From positions 868,001 through 932,000 of the forward strand of contig NZ_CWKH01000002.1 of the NCBI RefSeq assembly GCF_001245615.1: DNA of 64,000 bases, read 5' to 3'. The position numbers were made by a program, and so were the translations under genes. Below the pieces are notes generated by a model. It was not told the origin of the DNA, did not search any database, and was given only the letters and a program-made list of their open reading frames with translations. This document shows positions 15,632 to 64,000 of this stretch, piece by piece (the stretch's first letter is position 1; every line of letters starts with the position of its first letter). The DNA comes from Mycolicibacterium neworleansense. GTDB taxonomy: Bacteria; Actinomycetota; Actinomycetes; Mycobacteriales; Mycobacteriaceae.

Positions 15632-15676
15632 GTGAGACAGTGAGACATAGATACATTAAACGTCTCGCTAGTCTCG
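15632..15676. promoter_or_regulatory. Repeated TetR operator-like boxes between P450 and TetR genes
   Basis: GTGAGACA is repeated in tandem at 15632-15647, and GTCTCG(C/A)T-type boxes occur at 15662-15676 in the opposite sense (GTCTC at 15662 and 15671). Together they make two inverted GAGAC/GTCTC pairs around an AT-rich centre that could hold a -10 element. The position between the divergent genes fits autoregulation by the TetR protein. Confidence 0.5.
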
Positions 15677-15722
15677 ATCGCTAGGCTACGGCCAACAGGA
15701 CGTGCGGGCAAGGAGGGAATTG

Positions 15723-16385
15723 GTGACTTCCACGCGAACAGCGGACTTCGTGCGGCGCCTGGCCGAACCGGATCCCGCGGTGCTGGCCCGTGTCCGCGAT
15801 CCCGACCCGATCAGCACCCGGATCTTGTCCGCCACCCTCGAGCAGGCGGAACTGGTCGGAATCCGGCGAACGACGATGGAGGACGTGGCCCGCCGCAGCG
15901 GCGTCGGGCGCGCCACGCTCTATCGGCGGTTTCCGACGAAGGACGCCCTCATCGATGCCCTCGTGCTCTCGGAGGCGCGCCGCTACCTCGAGGGCAGCGC
16001 GGCGGCGCGGGCCCACGCCGAAAACCTGGAAGACCGCCTCGTCTATGGCACCGTCTTCACGGTGACCTTCCTGCGGGACCACGCGCTGCTGAAGAAGCTG
16101 CTGCGCACCGAACCTGAGACGATCCTGCCGAGCCTGACCGTCGACGCCGGAGCCATCATCGATTTCGCCACCGACTACTCGGCCGGACAATTACGCACCG
16201 ACCTGTACGGGGACAACGAGACCACCCCGGCGCAGGAACGCCACATCCGCACCGTGGCTGAGTTGCACACCCGACTTACGTTGTCGTTCATCGTGACTCC
16301 GCACACCGGCATCAAACTCGCCAGCCTGGAGGACACCCGCGACTATGTCCGCTCCTACCTGCTGCCGATGGTGACCGGCTCGTGA
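15723..16385 (+). CDS. TetR-family regulator
   Basis: A 220-residue repressor with a helix-turn-helix at about residues 45-75 (TTMEDVARRSGVGRATLYRR, then FPTKDALIDAL). GTG 15723 is preceded at optimal distance by AGGAGGG (15711-15717), which decides the start over an in-frame GTG at 15702. It diverges from the P450 gene, and its stop overlaps the CorA-family gene start, so it may control both. Confidence 0.85.
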   Translation: MTSTRTADFVRRLAEPDPAVLARVRDPDPISTRILSATLEQAELVGIRRTTMEDVARRSGVGRATLYRRFPTKDALIDALVLSEARRYLEGSAAARAHAENLEDRLVYGTVFTVTFLRDHALLKKLLRTEPETILPSLTVDAGAIIDFATDYSAGQLRTDLYGDNETTPAQERHIRTVAELHTRLTLSFIVTPHTGIKLASLEDTRDYVRSYLLPMVTGS

Positions 16386-17398
16386 AACAGGTGCGGGGCC
16401 GCGTATGGCGATCCGGACAGCCGGTCGACGACGGTTTCACGTTCTCGGCCATCTCCGACTGCCTGGCCGATGAGGACACCTTGGTGTGGGCCGACATCTA
16501 CGACCCGGACCACGATGCACTTCGCGACCTGGCCAAGGAGCTCGGGCTCAACATCTGGGCCGTCGAGGACGCGGTCGCCCCCAAGGAACGCACGAAAGTC
16601 TCGGTCTACCACACACATACGTTCTTCACGGTGTACGCCGTGGACACCCGCGAGCCCCATCAGGGCGCGGCACCCAACACGTCCCTGTTGGTGAAGCACC
16701 GGATCTCGGCATTCGTCCTGCCGCGCGGCCTGATCACCGTCCGGCTGCCCAGCGTCAACGGCGATGCCACCGAATTCGATATGAACCAGGTGTCCCAACG
16801 CTTCGATGATCTCGGCGGCCAGCGATACGGCGTCGGTTCGTTGGTGCACGGCCTGCTCGACGTCGTGGTGGACGGGCACTTCGAGGCCGTCGAGGCGCTC
16901 GACGAGGCGATCGAAGGACTCGAGGACGAACTGTTCGACGACGGTGGTCCGCGGCGCGGCCTGCAACGTCGGACCTTCCAGCTGCGCAAGGATCTGGTCG
17001 AGCTGCGCCGGGTGGTGCTGCCGATGCGCGAGGTGGTCAGCACCATCCAGCATCGCCGGCTCGATTCGCCCACCTCGCCCGAACTCGACCCGCTCTACGC
17101 CGACCTGTACGACCACGTACTGCGTGCCTCGGAGTGGACCGAATCGCTGCGCGACATGGTCACCACCGTGTTCGAGACCAACTTGTCGCTGCAGGACGCG
17201 CGGCTCAACACCGTGATGAAGAAACTCACCGGCTGGGCCGCGATCATCGCGGTGCCGACCGCCATCACGGGCTTCTACGGCCAGAACGTCATGTATCCGG
17301 GGATCAACACCGTCGTCGGCTTCATCGCGAGCACCGCGCTGATCGTCGTGCTGGTGATTTTGCTGTACGTGATGTTCAAACGCCGAGACTGGCTGTGA
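16382..17398 (+). CDS. CorA-family divalent cation transporter (GQN variant)
   Basis: A 338-residue protein with a long cytoplasmic N-domain, a charged stalk helix and two C-terminal membrane helices (about 280-298 and 312-332), ending in a basic tail. These are CorA features. The pore signature GMN is GQN here (Gly300-Gln301-Asn302 in FYGQN). The start overlaps the upstream TetR gene by 4 bases. It could be a Mg2+/Co2+ channel, or an exporter-like CorA relative. Confidence 0.82.
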   Translation: MKQVRGRVWRSGQPVDDGFTFSAISDCLADEDTLVWADIYDPDHDALRDLAKELGLNIWAVEDAVAPKERTKVSVYHTHTFFTVYAVDTREPHQGAAPNTSLLVKHRISAFVLPRGLITVRLPSVNGDATEFDMNQVSQRFDDLGGQRYGVGSLVHGLLDVVVDGHFEAVEALDEAIEGLEDELFDDGGPRRGLQRRTFQLRKDLVELRRVVLPMREVVSTIQHRRLDSPTSPELDPLYADLYDHVLRASEWTESLRDMVTTVFETNLSLQDARLNTVMKKLTGWAAIIAVPTAITGFYGQNVMYPGINTVVGFIASTALIVVLVILLYVMFKRRDWL

Positions 17399-48857: not shown

Positions 48858-51014
48858 ATGCTGACCCCGGCCGAGATCTGGCACCGGGCAGCTGATCGCC
48901 TGCGTAATTCACTACGCGCCAGAGATCCCGAGTACGACGCCCTGCGCCGCGCCCTGCGGGCCGCCATCGTCCTGCCCATCGCCGCTGCGGTGGGCTTCGC
49001 CGTCGGTGGTGACTCCCAGACCCCGCTGTTCGCCATCTTCGGCGCGGTCTCGCTGCTCATCACCGCCGACTTCCCCGGCAACCGGCCCGCGCGCGCGGTG
49101 GCCTACGGCGGCCTGGCCGTCAACGGCGCCATGCTGATCGTGCTGGGCACCGTACTGGCGCCCTATCCATGGCTGAGCGTTGCGGCGATGTTCGTCGTCG
49201 GCGTGGTGGTGTCCTTCTCCGGGGTGCTCAGCGAGATCGTCGCAGCCGGGCAGCGCGCCACACTGCTGCTGTTCGTCCTGCCGCTGTGCACGCCCGTCGG
49301 ACCGATACCCGACCGGCTGCTCGGCTGGCTGATCGCCCTCGTGATCTGCGTGCCCGCCGCGCTGTTCCTGTTCCGGCCAAAGCATCACGACGAGCTGCGC
49401 CGCTACTCGGCGCGGGTGTGCCGCCTGCTGGCCGACCGGCTCGAAGGCCAAGCCTCGGCCCGCGACGTCACCCGCGCGATGAACAAGCTCTACGAGAGCT
49501 TCCTCGGCGCCGACTACCGACCCGTCGCGCTCAGCGCAGGCAGCCGGGCGCTGGTCCGCGTCGTCGACGACCTCGGCTGGATCTGCGACCAGGTCACCGA
49601 TGACACCGGTGAACTGCTCGGCGCCATGCGTGACCCCGCGGTGCGGGTCCTGCGCGACAGCGCCGCGCTGCTGCGGATCCACGATCGCGCCGAACGTGCC
49701 GCGCGCGGAATCGATCTGCGGGCGGCACTGGCCGAACAGCGCACCGTGGCACAGAGCAGCTACCGCGACGACATCACCCGGATCCTGGATACCGCCGACG
49801 ACGCGGCCGCCGTCGAACTCGGACGGGGCCTGCTGATCCGACGCACCATCTCAGCCACCATCGCGGTCACCGGAAGGGTTATCGGCAATGCGGCGCTGGC
49901 CGACGCGCGCCCGGTCTGGGCTCGGGTGTTGGGCCGGCGCCTGCCCGAAACCGGCGCTGCCGACTGGGTGATGCCCGAGGCCGTCGCTGTCGCGGCCATC
50001 GCCAAGGGCCTGGTGGCCACCCGGGCCGTCGTGCTGCGCAACAGCCTGCGTACCGGACTCGGATTGGCCGTGGCCGTCGCCGTCACTCACGTGTTCCCGG
50101 TGCAGCACGGCTTCTGGGTGGTTCTTGGCGCGATGTCGGTGCTGCGCAGCAGCGCGCTGACCACCGGGACCCGCGTGCTGCGGGCCGTGGCCGGCACCGC
50201 CATCGGCTTCGTGCTCGGCGCGGTGCTCATCGAGTTCGTCGGCGTCGACCCCGTGGTGCTGTGGATCCTCTTGCCGCTGGTGGCATTCGGGTCCGCCTAT
50301 GTACCCGAAGTCGGGTCGTTCATCGCCGGACAGGCCGCGTTCACGATGATGGTGCTGATCAACTTCAACCTGATAGTCCCGACGGGCTGGCGGGTGGGCC
50401 TGGTCCGCGTCGAGGACGTCGTGGTCGGCGCACTGGTCGGCATCGTGGTGTCACTGCTGTTGTGGCCGCGAGGCGCGACAGCGTCGGTGTCGAAGGCCAT
50501 CGACCAGGCCCGCGCCGTGGGTGCACAGTTCCTCAAGTTCGCCGTCCTGCGCGTCACCCGAGGTGCATCCGAGCAGGCCACCGACCGCGTCGTCGCGCTG
50601 GGCCACGACGCGCTGTCAGCATCCCGCACCCTCGATGACGCTGTCCGCCAATATCTTTCGGAGAACGGCGGGCCCAGCGACCAGCGCGCACCGGTGGTGC
50701 GAGCAGCAAACCGGGCCAACCGGGTTCGCGCCGCAGCCGAGCTGATCGCCGATGTCGTGCCTCCGCCGCTGGGCGTCTACGACCAGACCCGCTCGGTGAT
50801 CGAGGAACATGCCGCAGCCATCTGCGCCCGGCTCACCGGCGACCACGCCACCTCGGTACTGGTGCCGATCGGAGAGAGCTTCGTCGTGTCGTTGCGCGCC
50901 GAGGCCGCTGGGACGGATCTCGCCGTTTCGGCGGCCCTGCCACTGGTGACGGCGGCCGCGCATCTCGGTGAGCTGGAGTTGTTGTACCCGCAGCCCGCCG
51001 AGTCGGTGGGTTAG
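48858..51014 (+). CDS. FUSC-family (YccS-like) aromatic-acid/efflux transporter
   Basis: A 718-residue inner-membrane protein with two blocks of about six helices (about 35-175 and 390-535), each followed by a cytoplasmic helical domain. This duplicated layout, with motifs VLPIAAAVGFAVGG and FWVVLGAMSVLRSS, is that of fusaric-acid-resistance/YccS proteins. It likely exports aromatic or toxic acids. Its stop overlaps by 4 bases the end of the convergent nSTAND gene. Confidence 0.83.
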   Translation: MLTPAEIWHRAADRLRNSLRARDPEYDALRRALRAAIVLPIAAAVGFAVGGDSQTPLFAIFGAVSLLITADFPGNRPARAVAYGGLAVNGAMLIVLGTVLAPYPWLSVAAMFVVGVVVSFSGVLSEIVAAGQRATLLLFVLPLCTPVGPIPDRLLGWLIALVICVPAALFLFRPKHHDELRRYSARVCRLLADRLEGQASARDVTRAMNKLYESFLGADYRPVALSAGSRALVRVVDDLGWICDQVTDDTGELLGAMRDPAVRVLRDSAALLRIHDRAERAARGIDLRAALAEQRTVAQSSYRDDITRILDTADDAAAVELGRGLLIRRTISATIAVTGRVIGNAALADARPVWARVLGRRLPETGAADWVMPEAVAVAAIAKGLVATRAVVLRNSLRTGLGLAVAVAVTHVFPVQHGFWVVLGAMSVLRSSALTTGTRVLRAVAGTAIGFVLGAVLIEFVGVDPVVLWILLPLVAFGSAYVPEVGSFIAGQAAFTMMVLINFNLIVPTGWRVGLVRVEDVVVGALVGIVVSLLLWPRGATASVSKAIDQARAVGAQFLKFAVLRVTRGASEQATDRVVALGHDALSASRTLDDAVRQYLSENGGPSDQRAPVVRAANRANRVRAAAELIADVVPPPLGVYDQTRSVIEEHAAAICARLTGDHATSVLVPIGESFVVSLRAEAAGTDLAVSAALPLVTAAAHLGELELLYPQPAESVG

Positions 51015-54000
51015 CGCTGTCCGGCGTACTCGGATGCAGTCAGCTGAGTGCAGGGCGAGTCGTAGTCGATCCCGCGGGCGGTCTCACTCTCCCGTTCGGG
51101 CGTCAGATTGTGGGTGAGCTTGGCGCACAACAGGTTCGGATCGGGCTCGAGAACCGGCCAGACACGCAGCGTGCCGTCCCCACTGGACGACAGCAGTTTC
51201 TTTCCATCCGAACTGAAATGGAGACTCGTCACTGACGCCGAATGACCCGTGAGCGGCGCGCCGAGCTGCTTTTGGCCGTCTACATCCCAGAGCTGAATAT
51301 TGCCGTCATCGCCACCCGATGCGATCGTGCGATTGTCGGGGCTCAGCGCCACGACAGCTGGGAGGGTGACCTGTGGCATGTCTTCGCCTTTGGGCTCGAA
51401 GGTGCCGGTATCCCACAACCGGAGTCGGTAATTGGCATACCCAACCGCCATCAAACTGCCGTCGTTGCTGAACACGATGCTCGCCACCCAGCTGTCACCC
51501 TTCATCGGCCGACCGATCCGCTCGCCGGTGTCCGAGTCCCACAGCTCAACCGTTCCTTGGACGCTGCCAGTGGCAACGATCTCACCGTCGTGGCTGAAGT
51601 TGAAGGTCGCGACCTCTTCCGTCGGCCGGATCAATGCTCCGACCGGCCGCATGGTGTCGGACTTGTATACCTGCAAAACGCTGGGTTCCAGCTTGACAGC
51701 GATTCGGGGGTTGGTTGTGTCATCGGCAACAACCTCCCGGTTGGGGCCAGGCGGGAGACTCAGCGCTTCGCCGATCGGTTTTCCGCTTCGCGCATCCCAT
51801 AGCTGCGCGACGGTATTGGCCGTGTCGTGTGACAACGACAGGAGGCGGTTCTGGTCGACCGGGAACAGGTAACCCACGTCGGGGCCGTCCACGCGCAACG
51901 GCTCTCCGATCGGCTGCCCCGTCTCCGCGTCCCACCAGCGCACTGTCTTGTCGTCCCCGCCGCTGCCCGAACCGATACGGCGACCACCATCGAAGTATCC
52001 GGCCCAAGCCGCGTCTGAATGGCCCCGCATGGGTTGCCAACTGGTGGCATCCCACAGCCGGATACTCCCATCGTCACCGCCTGCTGAAACCAGCTCGCGG
52101 CTGTCTGGGCTGAACGCCAAGGTCCACACCGGAGATTCATGTCCGAGCAGGACGCTGGGCTCACTGCCGCCGGCCGCAACATCCCAAAGTTGAATCGCGT
52201 TGTCGTAGCTGGCCGAGGCGATGCGGGCCCCATCTGGGCTGAACGCCACACTCATCACAGCGGCATCGTGGCGCATCGGCTGGCCGACGGCCCGCCCGCT
52301 GACCGCATCCCACATCTGCACGGTCTTATCGGCGCTGCCGGAGGCGATGTGGGCACCGTCCGGACCGAACGCCACACTCATCACCCGGTCGCCGTGTGTC
52401 ATCGGCGCCCCCACCGGCCTCCCGCTGACCGCATCCCACACCCGCACCGTCTTGTCGTAACCGCCCGAGACGATGTGTGAACCATCCGGGCTGAACGCCA
52501 CACTCGCCACTGTGTCGCTGTGTCGCATCGGCGCCCCGACAGGCTTTCCACTCGCGGTGTCCCACACCCGCACCGTCTTATCCGCACCACCGGACACGAT
52601 GCGAGAACCAGCCGGGCTGAACGCCACACTCATCACAGCGGCGTCGTGACGCATCGGCTCTCCCGCAGATTGCCCAGTGACGGCATCCCACACCCGCACA
52701 CTGTTGTCTGCGCTACCCGACACGATGCGAGAACCATCCGGGCTGAACGCCACACTCGTGACCCGGTCGCCGTGTCTCATCGGCGTCCCGACCGGCTGCC
52801 CACTGACGGCATCCCATACCTGCACAACGCTGTCGGCGCTGCCGGACACGATGCGAGAACCATCCGGGCTGAACGCCACACTCCTGACGACGAACGGAAG
52901 GTCGATGACCTTGAGAAGGTTGCGCTCTTCGTTGAGCACCGTCAACAGATCGTAGTTGCGGCCGGCCTCTGTCGACGGTATGGCATACGCGGCCAGCAGC
53001 ATCTGCATTGCATCAAAATCGTTGCTGCCCAGCGGCGATCGTCCCGCCAGCATCAGCAGCGACTCCCCGTACAACCGCTCCGCGGTCGCAGCCCGAAAGT
53101 GCTCCTGCGCCTCATTGCGTTGGCGAATGGCCCACACCCATAAGCTGGCGGCAACTACCGCGACGACCACGGCAGCAGCCAGCACCGCACGGAGCTGCCG
53201 CGTGCGCTTGAGAAGCGCCTGGGTCTGGCGCTGGGCCTCGATCTTGGCGCGTTCCTCCACCGCCAGTTGGGCCTGGGCAGCGCGCTCACGTTCGCGAGCA
53301 CGCTCCGCGGCCTCCGCGAGCGCAGCCTTCTCCTTCTCTTTCTCCTCTTCCGCGAGCCGTCGGGACCTTTCCGCGTTCCGCTGATCGCGGTGGGACCGTA
53401 CGGTGCCCGTGAGCACATCATGAATCAGCTCAATCCGTTGCGTGCCGTGGTATTCCGCGAGGCGGACCAGCCGTGAGTCGATCAGCTGATCGAGTTCCTC
53501 GCGCGTGAGGTGCGACGGAACCGCGTCCTCGACAGCCTCGAAGTCACGAAACCCGGTGGTCGTAATCAATTGGTTCTCAATGAATTCGGCCACCTCCGGC
53601 CGCATGCCACTCACGCACGAGGTGTAATAGTTCGGAATCGTCGAGCGACCATGCTCCTCGACGAGTTGCTCGTCGAATGCGGCTTTCCCGAGGCGCTTAC
53701 GTTCCTCGTTGAGCTCGCGGCAGACCAAGCTGAGCAAGGTGGGTTCGACGTCGGTCGCGCCACGACGGTTGACACGAACATCGACATCGTGCGGTAAGAC
53801 ACCGGCACCGGTATGCAGACCCGCTCCGGCGATGATGTCCACCACCTGATGCGCGAGTTCGGGTGTCATCAGATGTTCGGCCGGTTTGTACACCGCCTCG
53901 AATGCCTCGTCAATACCCAAGGGAAGCAGCCGCATTCGCGAGCGGCCCAGCGCGGGACTGAAGCGGCACCAGTCCTCAAGGTGGGCAAGAAAATCTTCGC

Positions 54001-54628
54001 GCAGACTGATCAGCAGCTTGCAGTTGTGCGACCGCAAGTTGAAGCGCCGCGCCTCCGCCGGATCATCTTTGATTCGGGTGGCCAGGTCCGCGGGTATCCG
54101 GTTCTCGGCGAGGTCGGCAAGGTCGTACTTGAATGCCTCCACCTGATCGGGTACGCCCTCACCGAGCGTGAACAGCTCTTCGAACTGGTCGAGGACGAGC
54201 ACCGGTGTCAGTAGGTAGTTCCGCGTACTCCACAGCTCGAGGTCCGCCCGATGCAGGTATTCCCAGAGTGATTCGTCGTCCCGGGGAAGCGTCGCATCGG
54301 GCGCTTCCGCTTGTAAGGCATGGCGGACCGCGTCGTGGAGCTGACAGCTGAGTGAGGCCGCGCCCGGCTTGAGGTCGAACCTGACATAGATCGGCAGATA
54401 GTTTTCGTTGCGCAACAACGGGAACAGGCCCGCGTGCAGCAATGATGTCTTACCCAGCCCTGAGCGTCCGAACAACACCGTGACGGGAGCGTCGAGAACC
54501 CTTTTGAGAAGCTTTTCGCATTCACGGACACGGCCGTAGAAAAAGCCTTGCGCGTCTTCGCAATACGACTCCAGCCCGGGCCACGGATTATCGGCGTCCA
54601 GTCTCGTCGTGATCGTTGCGTGCGTCAT
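51011..54628 (-). CDS. nSTAND NTPase with membrane helix and WD40 beta-propeller
   Basis: A 1205-residue signalling protein. NTPase: Walker A GRSGLGKTS (54-62) and Walker B VLVLDQFEE with Asp147, the nSTAND1 arrangement. A winged-helix part follows to about 400. A charged coiled coil (about 415-475, rich in Glu/Arg/Ala) leads to one membrane helix (about 478-500). From about 580 to 1150 are some fourteen WD40 blades; six in a row are nearly identical. STAND proteins are ligand-triggered switches; the propeller would sense or bind, the NTPase oligomerise. It is the last gene of the minus-strand unit, overlapping the SIR2-TIR gene by 4 bases. Confidence 0.86.
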   Translation of the reverse strand: MTHATITTRLDADNPWPGLESYCEDAQGFFYGRVRECEKLLKRVLDAPVTVLFGRSGLGKTSLLHAGLFPLLRNENYLPIYVRFDLKPGAASLSCQLHDAVRHALQAEAPDATLPRDDESLWEYLHRADLELWSTRNYLLTPVLVLDQFEELFTLGEGVPDQVEAFKYDLADLAENRIPADLATRIKDDPAEARRFNLRSHNCKLLISLREDFLAHLEDWCRFSPALGRSRMRLLPLGIDEAFEAVYKPAEHLMTPELAHQVVDIIAGAGLHTGAGVLPHDVDVRVNRRGATDVEPTLLSLVCRELNEERKRLGKAAFDEQLVEEHGRSTIPNYYTSCVSGMRPEVAEFIENQLITTTGFRDFEAVEDAVPSHLTREELDQLIDSRLVRLAEYHGTQRIELIHDVLTGTVRSHRDQRNAERSRRLAEEEKEKEKAALAEAAERARERERAAQAQLAVEERAKIEAQRQTQALLKRTRQLRAVLAAAVVVAVVAASLWVWAIRQRNEAQEHFRAATAERLYGESLLMLAGRSPLGSNDFDAMQMLLAAYAIPSTEAGRNYDLLTVLNEERNLLKVIDLPFVVRSVAFSPDGSRIVSGSADSVVQVWDAVSGQPVGTPMRHGDRVTSVAFSPDGSRIVSGSADNSVRVWDAVTGQSAGEPMRHDAAVMSVAFSPAGSRIVSGGADKTVRVWDTASGKPVGAPMRHSDTVASVAFSPDGSHIVSGGYDKTVRVWDAVSGRPVGAPMTHGDRVMSVAFGPDGAHIASGSADKTVQMWDAVSGRAVGQPMRHDAAVMSVAFSPDGARIASASYDNAIQLWDVAAGGSEPSVLLGHESPVWTLAFSPDSRELVSAGGDDGSIRLWDATSWQPMRGHSDAAWAGYFDGGRRIGSGSGGDDKTVRWWDAETGQPIGEPLRVDGPDVGYLFPVDQNRLLSLSHDTANTVAQLWDARSGKPIGEALSLPPGPNREVVADDTTNPRIAVKLEPSVLQVYKSDTMRPVGALIRPTEEVATFNFSHDGEIVATGSVQGTVELWDSDTGERIGRPMKGDSWVASIVFSNDGSLMAVGYANYRLRLWDTGTFEPKGEDMPQVTLPAVVALSPDNRTIASGGDDGNIQLWDVDGQKQLGAPLTGHSASVTSLHFSSDGKKLLSSSGDGTLRVWPVLEPDPNLLCAKLTHNLTPERESETARGIDYDSPCTQLTASEYAGQR
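52133..52888 (-). repeat. Six tandem near-identical 126-bp WD40 blade repeats
   Basis: The 42-residue unit with core SVAFSPDGSRIVSG and VRVWDAVSG recurs six times. The DNA is also nearly the same: the run CATCCGGGCTGAACGCCACA occurs with matching surroundings at 52735 and 52861, exactly 126 bases apart, with close variants in the other units. Blades outside this block are much more diverged. Confidence 0.88.
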
Positions 54629-56007
54629 GCTGCATCATTACGTCGAATTTCCCGGATCGCGGAGATCAAATCCCTGGTCAGGTCCGCGTCGGGCTCGCCC
54701 CCTGGCGCGTGACCGAACTGGAAGTTCTTGAACTCCCGCGGTACTTGCTTGAACCGAGTCGCGTCACCGTCATAGTCATCGTCGATGACCACCGGCATGA
54801 TGAAGCGCTGCCCGAGGATGCCGCGCGTTCGGTCGACGGCCTCGTTCCATTCCTTGAAGACGTAGCTTTCTTTCTTCCGCTCGGTGTTGGCGGAGATCAC
54901 CGGGACGAACAGGCGGACGGTTTGACGAATGCAGCTGAGAATCTCCTCCTCCCAGGCGTCACCGGTGCGCAGTTCCCGCTCGTCGAGCCAGGCCACCCCG
55001 CCGAGTGCGGTGATCGCGTCATACAGTCGCCGTGCCGCTGCCACATCCTCGTGCTTGTAGCTGATGAAGATTTCCGCGTTGTCCAGCGACGGCGGTTCGA
55101 TGTCTTGAGCTCCACCCCGAATTGGGCCGGGTGCGGCGGATGCGCGAGATTTCGGTTGCTTCGCCTCCCACCGTGTACGCAACTCCGCTACGAACTCGGT
55201 CGGCTCCATGTCCAACTGCTTGACCATCGTTCGCCGGCAGTATGTCGAGAAGAAGCTCGACAGCGACGGCTCACGGGAGTTTGCGGCGAAGAAGAACGGT
55301 TTACCGCCGAGTGCCAGTCGTTTGTCGCTGGACAGCCGAACGAGAAACCGCCCGAACCAGTCGGGGATCTGGCATCCGATGAACAACATCGGCTGATGCT
55401 TCAGCGGATAGTCGAGCCAGTCGGGGAGGCTGGCCTTCTCGGTCAGCAATGCATGGATCCACTCCAGGCGGTCCTCCTCGTGGATCGCGTACTCCGGCAT
55501 CGCCGCGGTTTGACCGAACAGGCTGAGAACAACCGTGTCGGCCGGCGAAGGCTCCTTGGCATTGCGCTCTTGGTCGGGGGTGGACTTGTTCGGGGCGAAC
55601 GAAATCTCACGTACGGGCCGGCCGCGAACAGTGCTCAACGCTTTTGCCAGCAATCGGTCAGGCGTTGTCGTCACGAACAACCGCAGATCGTCGATGGCCG
55701 CGAGGTCACTCAGCGCATCACCGGGCTCCGGATCGAGCTCCATCGTGATTTCGTCGATCACGCCATACAGGTCATCGACCTCGTCTCGACCACGCTCACG
55801 CAGAAACGCCGCCACAGCCTGATCGGTGGTCATGGTCCGGGGCGGAACGTTGAGGTCGAACCGCTCGGTCAGACGTTGACCCACCAGCGTGGTCAGGCTG
55901 TGCTCCGAGCCGTCGACCTTGACCATAGTTACGTCGGGCCCCACAACCGGTATCAGCAACCGGTGTCGGATATGCGAGAGAAGACTGCCCCAGAATTCCT
56001 CGTTCAT
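54625..56007 (-). CDS. SIR2-like-TIR domain fusion protein
   Basis: A 460-residue protein. Residues about 10-245 resemble the SIR2-like domains of bacterial defence genes (LLIPVVGPDVTMV; LRLFVTTTPDRLLAKAL; YAIHEEDRLEWIHALL; PMLFIGCQIPDWFGRFLV). Residues about 308-440 are a TIR domain (AEIFISYKHEDVAAARRLYD; AWLDERELRTGDAWEEEI, with a likely catalytic Glu before Leu; LFVPVISAN). Both domain types can consume NAD+ in immune systems. It overlaps the nSTAND gene by 4 bases and follows the SLOG gene by 169 bases. Confidence 0.83.
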   Translation of the reverse strand: MNEEFWGSLLSHIRHRLLIPVVGPDVTMVKVDGSEHSLTTLVGQRLTERFDLNVPPRTMTTDQAVAAFLRERGRDEVDDLYGVIDEITMELDPEPGDALSDLAAIDDLRLFVTTTPDRLLAKALSTVRGRPVREISFAPNKSTPDQERNAKEPSPADTVVLSLFGQTAAMPEYAIHEEDRLEWIHALLTEKASLPDWLDYPLKHQPMLFIGCQIPDWFGRFLVRLSSDKRLALGGKPFFFAANSREPSLSSFFSTYCRRTMVKQLDMEPTEFVAELRTRWEAKQPKSRASAAPGPIRGGAQDIEPPSLDNAEIFISYKHEDVAAARRLYDAITALGGVAWLDERELRTGDAWEEEILSCIRQTVRLFVPVISANTERKKESYVFKEWNEAVDRTRGILGQRFIMPVVIDDDYDGDATRFKQVPREFKNFQFGHAPGGEPDADLTRDLISAIREIRRNDAA

Positions 56008-56176
56008 GTCGAATAGCTCGATTCACATTGCGCCAGACAGCTGCCGGCGTCGCTGGGGGTGGCGCAGCACCAGCGCGGGTGTCCAGGGAACGCTCCAGGC
56101 ACAGACCAATCGTCCTAGTCCGTGCGACGGCCGCGTAGCGTAGTCAACTACTCGAATTTGGCGGGACCGGGCGCGG

Positions 56177-56998
56177 TCAACTCACGTTGCGGCCGTCACC
56201 CAAAACAGTCTCGAGCAATTCAACGAGCCTTTCCGGAGCGTCCGCCGGAATCGAACGGATCAGCCCGGATCGGACCAGCGCCGCAGTCCGTTCATCTGTC
56301 GGCTGACCCGCCAACGCGCGCGCGAACGTGTCGGCTGTTCGCCCCGACCCGGCAATCGCCACCACGGGCCGTCCGGCTCGCACGCTCAGCTCAGCGTCGG
56401 AGTAGGCGATGTCGCCGCCGTTGATCAACACCGTGATCGACGGCGCGCTGTCGGCGAGAATCGTTGTGACCTCGGCGATCCAGGGAGTTTCGGCGCCCCA
56501 GTGGTCACCGGGCACGATCAGGAAGTGGGTGTGCCGCGGCTCCAGCTCGTAGCCCTGCGCATGGTCGGGCGCGGAGGCGTCGGGCAACTTCACCGTGCCG
56601 GCGGCAGCCACACCCAGGAGCGGAAACGCCGCTGCCGCGCGGGCCTCGCCGAACAGTTGCATGACCCCGGCCAGCGTTCCGCCGTCCACGCCGACTGCCC
56701 CGTACTTCTGCATCACGGGCGCTATGCCGGAATCGAACAGTGGACGGAGCCGGTCCATGCCGGTGGCGTCGAAGCCGCCGGCCCCACCCACCACCACTAC
56801 GGTGGGCCGGGGCGGGATAAGCCCCAAAGCCGAGAGCGCCGATGGTAATTCCGTAGTTTCGGTGACCCGCACCGCAGCTGCTTCGCCCGCATTCGGAAAC
56901 TGCAGCCGGAACGGTGACGTCACGAGCGGGCCGTCCTCTCCTCGCCGCTGCACACCGCGCGAAAGTAATCGTGCAAATTCGAGTACCCGACTACTCAC
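56177..56998 (-). CDS. Stand-alone SLOG-superfamily (LSDAT-type) sensor protein
   Basis: A 273-residue protein. Nucleotide-binding features of SLOG/LSDAT domains are VVVVGGAGGFD (67-77), AVGVDGGTLAGVMQLFG (101-117), LEPRHTHFLIVPGDHWGAE (152-170), LINGGDIAYSDAELS (191-205) and PVVAIAGSGRTAD (211-223). SLOG domains bind nucleotide-derived ligands, e.g. ADP-ribose-type signals in TRPM channels and Thoeris ThsA. No effector is fused. It is first in the minus-strand unit, divergent from the caspase gene. Bases 56008-56176 between it and the SIR2-TIR gene show no ORF. Confidence 0.75.
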   Translation of the reverse strand: MSSRVLEFARLLSRGVQRRGEDGPLVTSPFRLQFPNAGEAAAVRVTETTELPSALSALGLIPPRPTVVVVGGAGGFDATGMDRLRPLFDSGIAPVMQKYGAVGVDGGTLAGVMQLFGEARAAAAFPLLGVAAAGTVKLPDASAPDHAQGYELEPRHTHFLIVPGDHWGAETPWIAEVTTILADSAPSITVLINGGDIAYSDAELSVRAGRPVVAIAGSGRTADTFARALAGQPTDERTAALVRSGLIRSIPADAPERLVELLETVLGDGRNVS

Positions 56999-57150
56999 GA
57001 CCCCTCCGCGTCACGTGCACATACTGCAATTGCCCACCTGACGTGTCGTCGGTCTCAGGAGAGGATACTGCGATGCCCCACCAGGCCTGCTGCTTCTCCG
57101 GACCGGAATTTCATCAATCCTGACCGAGGCCTAATGCAAAGGAGAGCACC
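56999..57150. promoter_or_regulatory. Divergent promoter region of the conflict island
   Basis: 152 bases separate the SLOG gene from the caspase gene and are less GC-rich than the flanking genes. AAAGGAG lies just before the caspase ATG. I see no strong palindrome. All five island genes can be transcribed from here. Confidence 0.5.
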
Positions 57151-57981
57151 ATGGCCAAGAAAGCGGTGCTCATCGGAGTCAATCGTTACCGAGTCCCGGG
57201 AAATGACCTACGCGGTTGCGTTCCCGATGTGAAGAACATGGCCAAACTGCTTCAGCGACAGTATGAATTCGAGTCCGACGATATTTCCTTGATCACGGAC
57301 TTCAAGGCCACCAAGGAAGCGATCGAGGAAGCCATCACGGGGCTGATCCGCGGGGCCCGGCGCGGCGACGTACTGCTCGTGCACTACTCCGGTCACGGCT
57401 CCAATGTGCCCGACGACAACGGGGATGAGTCCGACAAGCGCGACGAGATCCTGTGCCCGACCGACCTCGACTGGGACGACCCACTGCGCGACGACTGGCT
57501 GCGCAGTGTCTTCGACGGACTGGCTGCCGGGGTGAGCCTCACGGTGATCACCGACTCGTGCCATTCCGGCACCGTCACGCGCGCCCTCGAACCGCCCGAC
57601 GCCCCGGTCATCGAGCGATACCTGCCGAGCCCGTGGGACCTGGCGGCGGTGGAGTCAGGCCGCGCCCTGACCGGGACGACGCGGGGACTACGCCGTCACA
57701 AGCCGGGGGCCGACGTCGTCCACGTCGACATCCCCGAGGTACTCATCTCGGGCTGCCGCGCCGACCAGACCTCGGCCGACGCCGCCCTCGGCGGCGGCTA
57801 CGCCGGAGCCTTGACCTACCACCTGGTCGAGGCCGTGACCGAATCCCGGACACCGCTGTCGTATCGGGAACTACACGACCAGACCTGTACGAAACTGAAA
57901 CGCGGCCGCTACGAGCAGGTTCCGCAACTCGAAGGCAACGAAGCCCGCCTCGAGCAACCCTTCCTGTCGCCCCTCGACTAG
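57151..57981 (+). CDS. Caspase-like cysteine protease (peptidase C14)
   Basis: A 276-residue single-domain metacaspase-like protease. The start AKKAVLIGVNRY and VPDVKNMAKLL are typical p20 elements. The catalytic pair is His82 in YSGHGS and Cys137 in TDSCHSGT. There is no signal peptide, so it acts in the cytoplasm. Bacterial caspases are cell-death proteases activated by regulatory partners. The start has AAAGGAG. The giant CHAT/hydrolase gene follows after 13 bases and is a likely substrate or partner. Confidence 0.9.
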   Translation: MAKKAVLIGVNRYRVPGNDLRGCVPDVKNMAKLLQRQYEFESDDISLITDFKATKEAIEEAITGLIRGARRGDVLLVHYSGHGSNVPDDNGDESDKRDEILCPTDLDWDDPLRDDWLRSVFDGLAAGVSLTVITDSCHSGTVTRALEPPDAPVIERYLPSPWDLAAVESGRALTGTTRGLRRHKPGADVVHVDIPEVLISGCRADQTSADAALGGGYAGALTYHLVEAVTESRTPLSYRELHDQTCTKLKRGRYEQVPQLEGNEARLEQPFLSPLD

Positions 57982-57994
57982 CACCGTCGAAACG

Positions 57995-60900
57995 ATGACC
58001 GTCAAGCTGCAGCTCTCCGGCCTCCAGGACAAGACTGACATCCACTCGACACGCGGAGGCATGCCCGGCGTCGACGCCGACACTCCCGGCACCGGCCTGC
58101 TCGACGCGGTCGAGGTGGTCGGCTCCTACAACCTGTCCCCATCGGCACGCGAGCAGAGCCCGAAGCCGCGTGCCATCAAGGTCGCCGACGACGCCATCCT
58201 CGAAATCGAGATCGAAGGCGGGTTCACCACCTGGGTTTCGGCCAAGCGGTACTACGAGGAAGCGCCGCTGCTCAAACCCGAAGCGATGGTCGGCGACGCC
58301 GTCAGCGTCGACACGCTCCCGCGCGCCTCGGAACGAGGTGTCAAGGAGTGGCTGACCACTCGGCTACGGGTGCTGCGACTGGATTCCGACGCCATCACCG
58401 ACAAGGTCACCGATCCCGCACAGTGGCCGATCGACCTCATCGACGAGGCCAAGGACCTCGGAATCAACCTGCTGGCGAAGGTCCCCGCCTGGTTCGCCAC
58501 CAAAGCGTTGATCCGGATGATCGAGAACAATCTCAGACCCGGCCCCGGCCTGTACAAGTGGGAGGACGCCACCCGCGAGGCCGTGACGCCGGCGCCCGCC
58601 CCCGTCGATTTCACGGGATTCGACGTCGACAAGCCTCTGCTGGTGTTCATCCACGGCACCGCTTCGTCCACCCGCGGCAGCTTCGGTTCCTTCCTGAACA
58701 ACGAAGCGCAACCACAATGGCAAGAGTTGCAGCGGCTGTTCGGCGGCAACATCTACGCCTTCGAGCACCGCACTTTGAGCGAGAGCCCGATCGACAACGC
58801 CATCGAGCTGCTCACCGCGCTGCCCCGCAATGCCCGGGTCAGCATCGTGTCGCATTCCCGCGGCGGGCTCGTCGGCGATCTGGTCACGCTGACGTCGATC
58901 AACACCGAGCTCGTGGCGAACTTCAAACGTGGCAATTCCGATCTGGACCTGGCAGACCTGCATGACCGTAGGCAACTCGGCCGCCTCGCCGAACTCGTTG
59001 CGCACAAACAACTTCGAGTCGAACGGTTCGTGCGTTGCGCTTCGCCGTCGCGCGGCACCCTGCTGGCGGGCGAGAACATCGACGTCTTCCTGTCGGTGCT
59101 GACCAACCTCATCGGTTTCATTCCGGGTGTCGGCGGAACACCGCTTTACGAGGTGATCAAGCGGATCGCCCTCGAAATCGTCAAGAACCGGACCCTGCCG
59201 TCACTGGTGCCCGGGCTCGAAGCAATGATGCCGCAGTCACCGCTGGTCGCCCTGCTCAACAATCTGACCGATCCGGCGCTCGGCGCGATGGGCGTCATCG
59301 CCGGCGATATCCAGGCAGGCAACTGGCTCAAGAAGATAGGGGTGTTCGCCAGCGATCACGTCATCTACGAAGGCCGGGACAACGACCTCGTCGTCAACAC
59401 CGACGCCATGTTCCACGGGGCCCGGCGGACCGCCGCCCGCTACGTATTCGACCAGGGCGCCGACGTCAGCCACTTCAACTACTTCGCCAATCCGAGCACG
59501 CGCGGGGCGCTTGTCGAGTGGCTCGCAGCACCCGCCGACAAGCCTCCAGCCATCTTCCGAGACATCGTGGCGAGCGAGCTCGATCCGGTGCCGATGCTGC
59601 GGTCGCTGCAGACCCGCGCCAACGCGGACCAGCCGATTGTCTTTGTCCTACCGGGCATCATGGGGTCGCACCTCAATATCGGCGAGCGCGAGGTCTGGAT
59701 GCGCTACCTCGCCCTGCTGCGCGGCGGGCTCGGCGATCTCGCCGACGTCGCCGCGGCGAATGTACGTCCCGTCGCCCTGGTCGGCGACGGCTATCGCGAG
59801 CTGTGCGAGTTCCTACAGAACACTCACGAAGTCGTCCCGTTCGCCTACGACTGGCGCCGGTCGGTGACCGAGGCGGCCCGGCTGCTGATCGTCGAGCTCG
59901 AGAATGCCCTACGGCGAACGAAGCAGCCGGTTCGGATCATCGCTCACAGCATGGGCGGGTTGGTGGTCCGCGCGATGATTGCGCAAGCGCCCGACCTGTG
60001 GGACCGCATCTGTGACCGCGACGGCGGGCGCCTGGTCATGCTCGGCACGCCGAACCGCGGCTCGCACGACATCGTCGAATCATTGCTCGGCAGTGCTGCG
60101 ACCGTCCAGAAACTCGCGCTGCTGGACCTGACGCACGACATGGCGGAGGTCGTCGACATCATCGGGAAGTTCCCGGGTGTGCTCGAGCTGCTGCCCGATG
60201 ACGAGCGTTATTTCACGGTGTCGCACTGGCGTGATTGCCGGACCCAACGCGGCGGGGCGGCCGTCCCGGGCGAAGCCCTGCTGGATGGCGCACGAGAGAC
60301 GCACGACGCCATCAAGGGCCACCTGTCGGGTCTGCCCCACCCGGATCGGGTGCACTACGTGGCGGGAACCTCGCCCCGCACGGTGAAGGGCGTCGACATC
60401 ATCGACGGGCGGGTCGTCCTGGACTGCACGACGGAAGGCGACGGTCGGGTCACGTATCTCTCGGGCCGCCTGCCCGGCGTCCGGACCTGGTACATGGACG
60501 CGGTGCACGGCGACCTGGCCTCTCACGCACCGAGCTTCCCCGCGCTACAGGATCTGCTCGATTCGGGTACCACCTCACGGCTCTCGGACAGCCCACTCAG
60601 CGCGGCACGCGGCGGCGCGCACGAATTCCGGGCGCTGCCCGAACCGGTGCTCTATCCGACCGAGACCTCGCTGGCCGCCGACCTCCTGGGAAAGTCCGCG
60701 CGCAAGCCGTATCAAGAAGGCGCGCAGCCCAGCTTCCGGGTGTCAGTGGTGCACGACGACCTGCGCTACGCGCGGTACCCCATCGTGGTCGGGCATTACG
60801 AGGGCGACACCATCATCGGCGCCGAAGCCCAACTGGACGGGCTGCTGCGGGGTGCGCTGACGGAGCGCTATGCGCTGGGGCTCTACCCCGGCGAATTCGG

Positions 60901-63700
60901 ATCCGTGGCGGTGGTCTTGCGTAAGCCGACAGCGGTGGAGAAGGCGCTGGCCCTGCCGACCGGCGCGATCGTCGTCGGCCTGGGGAAGTGGGGCGAGCTC
61001 AGCGCTGGCCAACTGAGCGATCTGCTTCGCCGCGCCGCCCTCCAGTACGTTCTCGAACGCCGCGACGGCCTGTCCGCATCACCGGAGGACGACCCCGCCG
61101 CGGAAAAGCTCGGGTTGTCGGTGCTTCTGGTCGGCGGCAACTCGACCGCGAACATCGCGGTGGGCGATTCGGTGGGGGCCATTCTGCGCGCGATCGGCCA
61201 GGCCAACCGCGAACTCGCCGACGGCAACAACAACGCACTCACCATCCAGGAAGTCGAGATCGTCGAGCTCTACGCCGACACGGCGATCGAGGCGGCCCAT
61301 GCGGTCAAGCGTCTGGCTCCGCTGATCGGCAAGGAGCTCGACACCGAGATCGAGGCGACTCAGCTTCTCCGGCGCGGCCGGGAGGGCCGGCGGCGCCTGA
61401 CGGCCTCGGCGGGCCGTCAGCATGCGTGGCGCCGGTGGGAGGTCAGCGTGGTGGTGCCACCGCGCAAGCCCGAGCCGCCCTGCCTGCCCAAGCCGCTGGC
61501 CGACCGGCTCAAGCGCGCCGTGCTCGAATCCGGCAACGCTGAGCCGGAACTCCTTGCCGCGCTGGCGGAATTGGCGATCAGCGCACCCGGCCAGGTTGAA
61601 GCCCACCGCCAGATCAAGTTCCTCACCCTGTCCGACCGCGCCCGCGCCGAGGCGACCTCACAGCAGCGGCAGCCCGAGCTGGTGGACCGGCTGATCAAGG
61701 ACTCGATCTCCCAAACCCGGTTCCGGCCAGAGGAATCGCGAGTGCTGTTCGAGCTCACCGTTCCCAACGAGCTCAAGTCCGGGCTCGCACAGGTCGACAA
61801 CCTGGTGCTCGTCCTGGATGCCGAAACCGCCGCCTATCCATGGGAGCTGATGAGCGCCGGTGACAAGGCTCTGTGTCTCGACAAGGCTCTGGTGCGGCAG
61901 TTGCAGACAACGAACTACCGTCCACAGATCGGCGCGCGGGCAGGCACGGCGGCCTACGTTGTCGGCGATCCGCTGGTAAGCCCGCCGTTCAATCAATTGC
62001 CCGGAGCGATGGCCGAAGCCGGCGCGGTGTACGACCTACTGCGCGGACGCTTCGACGTCGACAAGCCCGTCACCAAACCGACGGCGCTCGAGGTGCTCGC
62101 CGGACTGTACCGAAAGCCCTACCGCATAGTGCATCTCGCCGGTCACGGCTACTACGAACCCCCGGCCACCGCCGACGGCAAGGCCCGCAGCGGGATGGTG
62201 CTCGACAATGGCGTCTTCCTCACCGCCGTCGAGGTCGGCCAGATGCAGCAGGTACCCGAACTGGTTTTCCTCAACTGCTGCCACATCGGCCAGACCGGGC
62301 CCGAGGCCCCGGCGCGCACCCCTGCCGTCGAGTTCAATCGCCTGGCCGCCAGCGTTTCCCGCGAATTGATCGAGATGGGCGTACGCGCGGTGGTGGCCGC
62401 CGGCTGGGCCGTCAAAGATGACGCAGCCAAGGAATTCGCCCAGAAATTCTACGAATGCATGCTCGGCGGAGAGACTTTCGGGTACGCCCTCAAGGCCGCT
62501 CGCGGCCACACTCACGACCAGTTCCCCGACAGCAACACCTGGGGCGCGTACCAAGCGTACGGTGATCCGGACTACCGGCTCGATCCCACTGCCACCGGCA
62601 CCACGGCGGCCGGGCCGGGACGGGTGGATGTCGCCGAGTTCATCGAGGCGGTGAACTACGTCGGCCGCAAGCCGGAAGTCGGTTCGACGAACCTGATTTC
62701 GCCCAGCCTGGCCACCCAGCAGCTCAACGCGCTGGTGCAGGAATGTCCTGCCGACTGGCTGGAGCAGACCGATGTTCAGATGGCGATCGGCTACGCGTAC
62801 GGCAATCTGCGGCGATTCGAGGATGCCCGCCGATACCTGATCGCCGCGCTAGCCGGGGAGGGTGAAACGTCGACGACGACCATGCGGGCCGTCGAGCAAC
62901 TCGCCAACTTCGAGGCACGCATGGCCAACGATCTCGCCGACAGCGACCCCGAGCACGCCCAGGAGCTGTATGGAAAGGCCATCGAGCGCCTCGAGCGGCT
63001 CCTCGAGGTGTCCAAGACTGCCGAGCGGTACAACCTGCTGGGTAGCGCCTACAAGCGTCGGGCCGCTGCCGAACCGACCGCCGGGACCGCCAGGAAGATG
63101 CTGTGTCGAGCGTCCGACCTCTACCGTCAGGCGCATCTGCTCACCATGCAGCGTCAATGCCTCGACCCGTACGCAGTGCTGAACTGGCTGACCCTGGCGG
63201 CGATCCTGGACAAACCGGTGCCCGACGCTGATGCGCTGATCGATCGTTGCGAGGTCACCGCGCGCGAGCGGTTCTCGATTGACCGCACGTTCTACACGGC
63301 GGTCTCGATCGCCGACGCGGCCCTGGTGCGGGCGCTCAGATCAGGCCGGCTTGGGCAGAATGGCCAGGCCGGGGACCAGGAAGTTGCCCAGCTGCTGACC
63401 CGTTTCGAAGAAGTGGTCCGGCTGGCGGTGCCAACCCCGGGCAACCTCGATTCGGTCTGCACGCACCTGACCGTCACCGGCAAGCTGCTGATCAAGATTC
63501 AGCCCAACCGCGCCAGCAGCCGGATCACCGTGGCTCATCTCGCTGAAATGTGCCGGCGCATCGCCGGCGATCAACGCAACGGGCAGAGCGCCGAACCCAC
63601 TGCCGCCACGATTCCGACCAACGGGTCCGCCCCGAAAGCTGGTGCCGTGCAACCCAAGCCGCCCAAGCGCAGGCCGGGCGGCGTCGGGATATCGGCGTAG
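57995..63700 (+). CDS. Giant protein: two alpha/beta-hydrolase domains, CHAT protease and helical repeats
   Basis: A 1901-residue cytoplasmic protein. Residues 1-200 are unassigned. About 210-520 is a first hydrolase (LLVFIHGTASS; Ser288 in SHSRGG). About 545-860 is a second, LCAT/phospholipase-like hydrolase (FVLPGIMGSHL; Ser652 in AHSMGG). About 925-1150 is a region with VVGHYEGDTIIGAEAQLDG and GAIVVGLGKWGELS, reminiscent of the leucine-aminopeptidase N-domain. About 1290-1530 is a CHAT caspase-like protease with His1384 (LAGHGYY) and Cys1429 (LNCCHIG). About 1540-1850 is helical/TPR-like, with a basic Pro-rich tail. It is probably an effector whose hydrolases are controlled by proteolysis. 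Confidence 0.85.
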   Translation: MTVKLQLSGLQDKTDIHSTRGGMPGVDADTPGTGLLDAVEVVGSYNLSPSAREQSPKPRAIKVADDAILEIEIEGGFTTWVSAKRYYEEAPLLKPEAMVGDAVSVDTLPRASERGVKEWLTTRLRVLRLDSDAITDKVTDPAQWPIDLIDEAKDLGINLLAKVPAWFATKALIRMIENNLRPGPGLYKWEDATREAVTPAPAPVDFTGFDVDKPLLVFIHGTASSTRGSFGSFLNNEAQPQWQELQRLFGGNIYAFEHRTLSESPIDNAIELLTALPRNARVSIVSHSRGGLVGDLVTLTSINTELVANFKRGNSDLDLADLHDRRQLGRLAELVAHKQLRVERFVRCASPSRGTLLAGENIDVFLSVLTNLIGFIPGVGGTPLYEVIKRIALEIVKNRTLPSLVPGLEAMMPQSPLVALLNNLTDPALGAMGVIAGDIQAGNWLKKIGVFASDHVIYEGRDNDLVVNTDAMFHGARRTAARYVFDQGADVSHFNYFANPSTRGALVEWLAAPADKPPAIFRDIVASELDPVPMLRSLQTRANADQPIVFVLPGIMGSHLNIGEREVWMRYLALLRGGLGDLADVAAANVRPVALVGDGYRELCEFLQNTHEVVPFAYDWRRSVTEAARLLIVELENALRRTKQPVRIIAHSMGGLVVRAMIAQAPDLWDRICDRDGGRLVMLGTPNRGSHDIVESLLGSAATVQKLALLDLTHDMAEVVDIIGKFPGVLELLPDDERYFTVSHWRDCRTQRGGAAVPGEALLDGARETHDAIKGHLSGLPHPDRVHYVAGTSPRTVKGVDIIDGRVVLDCTTEGDGRVTYLSGRLPGVRTWYMDAVHGDLASHAPSFPALQDLLDSGTTSRLSDSPLSAARGGAHEFRALPEPVLYPTETSLAADLLGKSARKPYQEGAQPSFRVSVVHDDLRYARYPIVVGHYEGDTIIGAEAQLDGLLRGALTERYALGLYPGEFGSVAVVLRKPTAVEKALALPTGAIVVGLGKWGELSAGQLSDLLRRAALQYVLERRDGLSASPEDDPAAEKLGLSVLLVGGNSTANIAVGDSVGAILRAIGQANRELADGNNNALTIQEVEIVELYADTAIEAAHAVKRLAPLIGKELDTEIEATQLLRRGREGRRRLTASAGRQHAWRRWEVSVVVPPRKPEPPCLPKPLADRLKRAVLESGNAEPELLAALAELAISAPGQVEAHRQIKFLTLSDRARAEATSQQRQPELVDRLIKDSISQTRFRPEESRVLFELTVPNELKSGLAQVDNLVLVLDAETAAYPWELMSAGDKALCLDKALVRQLQTTNYRPQIGARAGTAAYVVGDPLVSPPFNQLPGAMAEAGAVYDLLRGRFDVDKPVTKPTALEVLAGLYRKPYRIVHLAGHGYYEPPATADGKARSGMVLDNGVFLTAVEVGQMQQVPELVFLNCCHIGQTGPEAPARTPAVEFNRLAASVSRELIEMGVRAVVAAGWAVKDDAAKEFAQKFYECMLGGETFGYALKAARGHTHDQFPDSNTWGAYQAYGDPDYRLDPTATGTTAAGPGRVDVAEFIEAVNYVGRKPEVGSTNLISPSLATQQLNALVQECPADWLEQTDVQMAIGYAYGNLRRFEDARRYLIAALAGEGETSTTTMRAVEQLANFEARMANDLADSDPEHAQELYGKAIERLERLLEVSKTAERYNLLGSAYKRRAAAEPTAGTARKMLCRASDLYRQAHLLTMQRQCLDPYAVLNWLTLAAILDKPVPDADALIDRCEVTARERFSIDRTFYTAVSIADAALVRALRSGRLGQNGQAGDQEVAQLLTRFEEVVRLAVPTPGNLDSVCTHLTVTGKLLIKIQPNRASSRITVAHLAEMCRRIAGDQRNGQSAEPTAATIPTNGSAPKAGAVQPKPPKRRPGGVGISA

Positions 63701-63707
63701 TTGACCG

Positions 63708-64000
63708 TCAGCTCAGAGGCCGGTGCGGCATCAGCGCGTTCGGCGGGATCTGGCCGAACTTGCCCGCCTGGTAGTCCTCCAGTGCCTGGATGAGCTCGGA
63801 TTTCGAGTTCATCACGAACGGGCCGTAGTGGAAGACGGGTTCACGAATCGGCTTGCCGCCCAGCAGCAGAACCTCCATCGCGGGACGGTTCGAGTCCTGG
63901 TTTGCCTCGGCCGAGACCGTGATGCGGTCGCCGGGGCCCAGCACTGCGAGCTGGCCCTGCTGGATGGGATGTGCCACCGGGCCGACGCTGCCGCGTCCGC
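63708..64000 (-). CDS. Pirin-family protein (C-terminal part; runs off right edge)
   Basis: The last 97 or so residues of a pirin-like cupin. The C-terminal segment REPVFHYGPFVMNSKSELIQ, with GKFGQIPP near the end, is the characteristic pirin C-domain; the iron-binding N-domain lies outside the window. The frame is open to the edge, and GTG 63977 is internal, not the start. Convergent with the giant CHAT gene, eight bases away; it belongs to the core genome rather than the island. Confidence 0.8.
   Translation of the reverse strand, partial: GRGSVGPVAHPIQQGQLAVLGPGDRITVSAEANQDSNRPAMEVLLLGGKPIREPVFHYGPFVMNSKSELIQALEDYQAGKFGQIPPNALMPHRPLS

Follow-up and report, generated by a model that had tools for sequence, protein, structure and literature searches.

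Several described systems join domains of the kinds considered here. Thoeris types I, II and IV encode a TIR enzyme and an effector with an ADP-ribose-type sensor at one locus, the effectors being SIR2 (ThsA), TM-macro or caspase-like protease proteins; in type II, the TIR signal His-ADPR opens the TM-macro effector, and in type IV, the TIR signal N7-cADPR opens the caspase-like protease (excerpts of PMC12847820). In VMAP systems, according to the sections of Kaur et al. (2020; PMC7159879) at hand, a caspase-superfamily domain always has an adjoining alpha/beta-hydrolase gene, and the ternary VMAP/EACC1 systems exchange their sensor and effector parts. TIR, SLOG, macro, STAND, and CHAT domains are discussed as parts of conflict systems in extracts from PMC9503650, PMC8195603, and PMC10907252. 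The APAF-1 apoptosome combines a STAND ATPase carrying C-terminal WD40 repeats with a caspase (excerpts of PMC13174449 and PMC7159879).

The locus described here lies in a window of 64,000 nucleotides from Mycolicibacterium neworleansense (source assembly, 6.29 Mb), the window being the whole stretch of DNA that was analysed. It comprises five genes, designated A (nSTAND-WD40), B (pseudo-SIR2 and TIR), C (LSDAT/TRPM-type SLOG), D (metacaspase-like), and E (a multidomain effector). A TIR NADase, which B is likely to contain, also belongs to SARM1-type death pathways. TPR-S domains were reportedly proposed by Burroughs and Aravind in 2020 as sensors of NAD-derived signals, and the conflict systems that they are said to have described place TPR-S beside TIR- or SLOG-type enzymes and effectors; in line with that definition, E carries a TPR-S, and a TIR (B) and a SLOG protein (C) are found in its neighbourhood.

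The island shares the domain vocabulary of the Thoeris effectors (excerpts of PMC12847820). Unlike Thoeris, it has a STAND-WD40 sensor, a TIR fused to a SIR2 that is dead by motif, a separate TRPM-type SLOG, and an effector in which macro, CHAT, TPR-S, and hydrolase parts are united. B was considered as the ThsB-type TIR gene of a Thoeris system and set aside, its TIR matching the PADLOC ThsB1/ThsB models weakly (0.0058) and the NCBIfam model ThcB4 at 15.8 of 220 bits. With the VMAP/EACC1 systems it has in common the pairing of a caspase with an alpha/beta-hydrolase and the exchangeability of sensor and effector parts; D was rejected as an EACC1-type caspase (51.4 bits against a cut-off of 140), and neither MoxR nor vWA was among the Pfam matches listed for the five proteins (for A, the best 25 of 59). 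The island differs from APAF-1 and SARM1 in its TM-like helix, TIR-SIR2 protein, CHAT, and hydrolases, and CARD was not among the Pfam matches listed (for A, again the best 25 of 59). C belongs to the same family as the MHR1/2 SLOG domain of TRPM2 and is a stand-alone bacterial protein. PADLOC gave domain-level matches only, namely HEAT-ARM_XIII on A, TIR models on B, a caspase on D, and SAVED_CHAT on E (0.0028), with none for C. The literature surveyed, outside which Burroughs and Aravind 2020 lay, held no recognised description of the five-gene set, and what it returned on LSDAT together with SLOG concerned TRP channels only.

The five open reading frames were found exactly at the places and on the strands of the first-pass annotation, with its spacings of 4, 13, and 169 bases. 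On the left, a FUSC-like gene (Pfam FUSC_2) ends at 51014, and on the right, a convergent pirin gene (Pfam Pirin) has its stop at 63711. Among 41 genomes, both genes lay on one contig in 12 same-genus genomes including that of the window, and in 10 of the 11 other members, they were 3–91 bases apart as measured between match ends, with G012 as the exception (1.8 kb); the junction sequence was read in six genus members. Since the flanks adjoin elsewhere in the genus, the insert can be placed at about 51015–63710 (12.7 kb), comprising only the five genes, with no other gene seen. The earlier observation of the island was confirmed.

The same chromosomal site exists in related species in full, C-D-E, E-only, and empty states, which offer natural controls. 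G298 (locus L109) has all five genes in identical order, M. senegalense (L010) has C, D, and E without A-B, and G077 (L118) has E alone, with 1860 aa and no internal stop, the TGA being its end. Beside this E (L118:9674-9902), fragments of the spacer between C and D survive, as do the start and the end of D; the E-only state is therefore a product of loss, in which the genes A to C and the greater part of D disappeared. The same families recur in G298 and, rearranged, in G210, and the five-gene arrangement is not a chance one. In L109, the left junction (4376-4400) and the end of the downstream gene (17133-17157) are identical at 22 of 25 bases, a possible relic of integration; a repeat of this type was not seen at the left junction of the window.

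Gene A (51011..54628, minus strand) encodes 1205 aa with an nSTAND1 ATPase, a predicted TM helix, and WD40 repeats. Pfam nSTAND1 was matched at 9.3e-31 over residues 15-426 (54586-53351), with the Walker A motif GRSGLGKT at residue 54; WD40 was also matched, and its region (about residues 581-1160) contains a 126-bp tandem repeat array of 5.4 copies with 77% matches (52200..52883, minus strand). Hydropathy placed the TM helix at about residues 481-501, and a TM-like hydrophobic segment stood between the ATPase and the WD40 part in all three copies of A that were read (window, L109, and L116). When A of the window was compared with that of L109, the ATPase part (residues 1-420), taken as seven blocks of 60 residues, had 90–93% identity in all blocks but one, which had 72%, and from residue 421 on, the identity dropped to 19–38% per block, both proteins keeping the TM-like segment and the WD40 matches despite this divergence. 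The corresponding identities were 88.5% for B, 79.0% for C, 86.5% for D, and 88.1% for E. The sharp change confined to the sensor half of A would fit a recognition module under diversifying exchange.

Gene B (54625..56007, minus strand), which overlaps A by 4 bases, encodes 460 aa with a pseudo-SIR2 fold (residues 1-283) followed by a TIR domain (residues 309-459). Pfam TIR_2 was matched at 3.9e-15, and the SIR2_2 match was marginal (4.8e-5, 23.9 bits against a cut-off of 24.5). In the AF2 model (mean pLDDT 75), residues 1-287 matched the SIR2 domains of ThsA, DSR2, and SPARSA, and residues 309-459 matched TIR domains, so that the predicted structure supports a SIR2 fold. The catalytic positions were examined in 126 rows, made up of 23 from alignment A3, five from loci (including Paraburkholderia), and 98 other matches listed, with the B of the window counted twice. 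Site 115, which by motif rather than by residue-level structural superposition we take to be the place of the catalytic Asn, was Thr in all 126 rows, and site 164, presumably the place of the catalytic His, was Phe in 108 rows and Tyr in 18. Glu386 of the TIR, assigned as catalytic on the same motif assumption, was Glu in 126 of 126.

In eight genomes searched with SIR2_2, the three matches all fell in B or in proteins related to it, and intact SIR2 motifs, sought by regular expression, were absent from the loci examined (0 matches); because no intact SIR2 was found for alignment, the mapping is based on motif and fold. When the A3 profile was compared with the PDB by sequence, there was no recognisable SIR2 chain among the matches listed, which were mainly TIR chains. 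An active SIR2 NADase or effector was rejected for B by motif, both Asn and His being replaced. The earlier proposal of a SIR2-like domain therefore stands as a fold, and the SIR2 half is probably no active NADase. The TIR is the likely enzyme of B, since the SIR2 part lacks Asn and His whereas every row retains the Glu of the TIR.

The longest open reading frame of gene C (56177-56998, minus strand) has 273 aa. The true start is most likely the GTG at 56923, because most aligned relatives start there, a ribosome-site-like AGGAGAGGA stretch stands before it, and a conserved inverted repeat then falls upstream; C would accordingly be a protein of 248 aa (56177..56923, minus strand), 169 bases from B and 227 bases from D. 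Pfam LSDAT_prok (PF18171) was matched at 7.1e-62 (208.6 bits, cut-off 25.4), and the family profile matched TRPM2 at 4.2e-14. In C, no residue could be identified as catalytic.

The inverted repeat, GAGTA-N6-TACTC (56981..56996), in the divergent C/D intergenic region, is a candidate operator or promoter element. It is present as a single copy in the 64 kb, with 0.01 expected, and is kept in L109, L010, and the decayed L118 of G077; the pattern was also observed in two unrelated loci, twice in L112 and once in L119. Positions 55950-57250 gave no match to a sigma-70-type promoter or terminator, and Rfam returned 0 RNA-element matches at the gathering score. LSDAT is rare, being found in 4 of 396 Actinomycetota genomes at 1e-10, with strong matches in 10 of 396 genus genomes; nine weak genus rows (E 1.4e-4 to 8.8e-4) were dropped as noise, and the LSDAT of G277, a 103-aa fragment, was retained in the denominators.

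Gene D (57151..57981, plus strand) encodes a metacaspase-like caspase of 276 aa with Peptidase_C14 matched by Pfam at 1.9e-30. By sequence it matched the Metacaspase-4 chain 6w8s (3.7e-32), and the dyad His82/Cys137 was kept in 38 of 38 relatives. After a gap of 13 bases follows gene E (57995..63700, plus strand), whose 1901 aa are resolved by Pfam and predicted structure into two hydrolases, a macro fold, a CHAT protease, and a TPR-S domain. Hydrolase 1 (DUF7379, Pfam 5.3e-36) covers residues 216-294 (58640..58876, plus strand), with Ser288 kept in 70 of 74 relatives. Hydrolase 2 (LCAT, Pfam 3.2e-9) covers residues 612-699 (59828..60091, plus strand), and its Ser652 was Ser in 63 of 74 relatives and Gly in nine. 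The region at about residues 911-1115 (60725..61339, plus strand) has no Pfam match and adopts a macro fold in the predicted structure, which may bind ADP-ribose. The CHAT protease (Pfam 5.2e-29) spans residues 1248-1524 (61736..62566, plus strand), with the dyad His1384/Cys1429 kept in all 74 relatives, and TPR-S (PF20308, 2.1e-11, 44.7 bits, cut-off 27.6) spans residues 1608-1735 (62816..63199, plus strand). Catalytic residues are kept in the TIR, the CHAT, the caspase, and most hydrolases of the set, and the SIR2 site is dead by motif. The domain calls made earlier all found support in Pfam, or, for SIR2 just under its cut-off, in the predicted structure, and the earlier inventory had missed the TM helix in A as well as the macro fold and TPR-S in E, the latter two being the main clue.

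These families also keep company elsewhere. TPR-S was found in 8 of the 12 LSDAT genomes, one copy each, and in seven of the eight (G000, G298, G323, G202, G260, G210, and G359, the exception being G699), it lay within 15 kb of LSDAT on the same contig; under uniform placement and ignoring relatedness, the chance of such closeness is 1.5e-15, or 2.7e-13 with the window's own genome left out. TIR_2 lay within 15 kb of LSDAT in 10 of the 12, the misses being the G277 fragment and the 3.4-kb contig of G359, and most LSDAT loci without B had another TIR nearby. A patatin gene adjoined LSDAT in five (G323, G058, G202, G260, and G210), four of them Pfam-confirmed. B occurred in 6 of 396 genus genomes, five of which were among the 10 with strong LSDAT matches (hypergeometric 1.9e-8; 6e-7 with the own genome left out; relatedness ignored). 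It adjoined A in five of the six, and in the sixth (G041), which has no LSDAT, the contig ends just past B. In G323, B-A is about 40 kb from LSDAT-patatin-TPR-S on one contig. In G260, the TPR-S about 12 kb from LSDAT is fused to a cyclase.

All five families come together in three loci, namely the window, L109 of G298, and L116 of G210, the last probably being the same contig as L018, which has equal length and gene spacing. In G210, of the same genus as the window, the order is B, A, an unassigned gene, patatin, C, D, E′, and TIR; E′ has the macro, CHAT, and TPR-S regions without the hydrolases, and the patatin abutting C may replace them. An 874-aa protein without a Pfam match (L116:5733-8354) was observed inside this rearranged locus. 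A plasmid of Paraburkholderia caribensis (L143) carries CHAT, TPR-S/ASK1-type, pseudo-SIR2-TIR, and nSTAND1 genes on one strand within 10 kb. There (L143:3425-13356), the order is CHAT, two unassigned reading frames, a GDSL-lipase match below cut-off, MAP3K-TRAF-binding/TPR-S, pseudo-SIR2-TIR, and nSTAND1, in a stretch for which the gene table of the sequence collection holds no features. Close relatives of E in Nitrospira have a TIR-receiver gene directly downstream (L013) or an ASK1-type TPR-S as the second gene downstream (L014). Mobility of the system on plasmids or viral contigs was considered and rejected after searches with D, E, and LSDAT: D had no plasmid match at 1e-20, residues 900-1859 of E gave partial plasmid matches in eight records, none covering 80%, and LSDAT had no confirmed relative in viral contigs and two distant matches in plasmids.

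A strict, obligate five-gene unit was rejected. Of 80 E loci, two had C (L010 and L018), the other 78 having D-E or E alone without it; where E was flanked by 6 kb or more on each side (50 loci), C was present in two and absent from 48. Of the 71 loci in which 900 nt or more precede E, 30 had a caspase immediately before it (<400 nt away on the same strand), and five more had one elsewhere nearby; nine loci were too short for this count. L045, among the five, is an undercount, its first CHAT reading frame having been taken as E. Operon-like neighbours numbered 169 in 60 E loci, of which 20, picked by eye, were annotated. They were TIR or TPR-S proteins in L013, L014, L016, L029, L050, and L070, and ordinary metabolic or signalling (housekeeping) genes in L020, L029, L043, and L052; five had no match. 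The genome of M. senegalense has only a TIR-level match and no SIR2-TIR of the kind of B. Because D-E mostly occurs without A-C, the neighbours of E are varied, and M. senegalense lacks B, D-E looks like an effector cassette usable by different triggers, and A-B like a trigger cassette.

Its context marks the insert as a genuine conflict system, modular and cleanly inserted, to judge by the insertion site, the swapped sensor, and the repeated association of its families. The first-pass annotation had proposed a single immune or suicide island, and this holds in so far as insertion site, co-occurrence, and sensor swap go, and needs amending in that D-E is mostly found without A-B-C; the separation of the two arms, which it had named as telling against its proposal, was found in part, with C in 2 of 80 E loci and M. 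senegalense having C-D-E only.

On balance, we favour a conflict system in which a sensor provides the trigger and the signal is derived from NAD. In this model, whose activities, ligands, order of steps, membrane anchoring, and phage trigger we infer, A would be a membrane-anchored STAND ATPase that senses an invader or an envelope insult through its exchangeable WD40 sensor and oligomerises. It would then recruit B via the catalytically dead SIR2 fold, switching on the TIR, which would make an ADP-ribose-type signal from NAD+. This signal would be bound or processed by C and by the macro and TPR-S parts of E, and its binding would unleash CHAT, the two lipase-like domains, and metacaspase D, with proteolysis and membrane damage leading to cell death or arrest. 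That the TIR product would activate a co-encoded effector is suggested by analogy with Thoeris. The closeness of TPR-S and TIR_2 to LSDAT, the concentration of B in LSDAT genomes and its pairing with A, the G210 and Paraburkholderia loci, the sensor swap, the kept catalytic residues, and the Thoeris and VMAP precedents count for the model. The receiver would be one of a candidate set of three, namely C, the macro fold, and TPR-S; M17-type macro folds need not bind ADP-ribose. The C-D-E state of M. senegalense, the 78 of 80 E loci without C, the housekeeping neighbours, the 4 of 12 LSDAT genomes in which no TPR-S was found, and the cyclase-fused TPR-S of G260 all count against the NAD-signal model. 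With neither A-B nor B elsewhere, M. senegalense must have another trigger or a copy that is decaying.

More tentatively, and at less than even confidence, the set can be pictured as a bacterial "apoptosome with a second messenger," in which an exchangeable membrane WD40-STAND sensor would switch on a TIR synthase by way of a dead SIR2 scaffold, and the ADP-ribose-type product would act through macro, TPR-S, and LSDAT receivers to release two caspase-clade proteases and two lipases. To our knowledge, this product would be novel, as would a CHAT protease gated by macro/TPR-S.

The same separations lend themselves to another reading, rather unlikely in our judgement, in which the insertion site is home to two systems that work independently: A-B would be a self-sufficient sensor with an NAD+-starving TIR NADase, and C-D-E an LSDAT-regulated protease/lipase. 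M. senegalense with C-D-E alone, the D-E of most E loci without A-C, the 40 kb between B-A and LSDAT-patatin-TPR-S in G323, and G041 with B and no LSDAT all speak for it. Against it stand the concentration of B in LSDAT genomes (five of six), the recurrence of the five families in rearranged form in G210, the Paraburkholderia B-A beside TPR-S and CHAT, and the presence of another TIR near most LSDAT loci lacking B.

C, which is divergent from and adjoins D-E and was kept when A-B was lost, could instead be an off-switch, with LSDAT, and perhaps the macro fold, binding or degrading the TIR product to hold E inactive until loss of NAD+ or of the signal frees it; macro domains in TIR systems are indeed predicted to act on cADPR in extracts from PMC9503650. 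However, no catalytic residues can be assigned in C, and the E of G077 (1860 aa) persists without C, so that this E can be tolerated in the absence of C; we regard the off-switch role as improbable. Least probable of all, and in our view very unlikely, is a trigger by envelope or developmental stress rather than phage, with the WD40 propeller outside the membrane. The TM-like segment between ATPase and WD40 in three copies of A would suit it, but the abrupt change of the sensor half better fits changing non-self targets, and the WD40 topology is deduced from hydropathy only.

One small natural insert joins the STAND-WD40 and caspase parts of an apoptosome, a TIR, a TRPM-type SLOG, and an ASK1-type TPR-S. 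To judge from its sequences, the island resembles the cell-suicide machinery of animals and may be its bacterial counterpart; the bacterial-to-animal relationship of such parts is debated. It also provides a concrete set for asking what bacterial LSDAT and TPR-S bind.

Other domain combinations were observed among the related loci. One protein (L142:888-2867) unites TPR-S with an adenylate/guanylate cyclase domain. The mycobacterial LSDAT loci L112-L115 have patatin beside LSDAT as well as TIR or TIR-nSTAND-WD40 genes, and are a sister system with another lipase; L112 and L114 also carry a TPR-S gene. In L112, a single reading frame (14567-16777) encodes both a TIR and a mycobacterial lipoprotein domain of the LpqN type.
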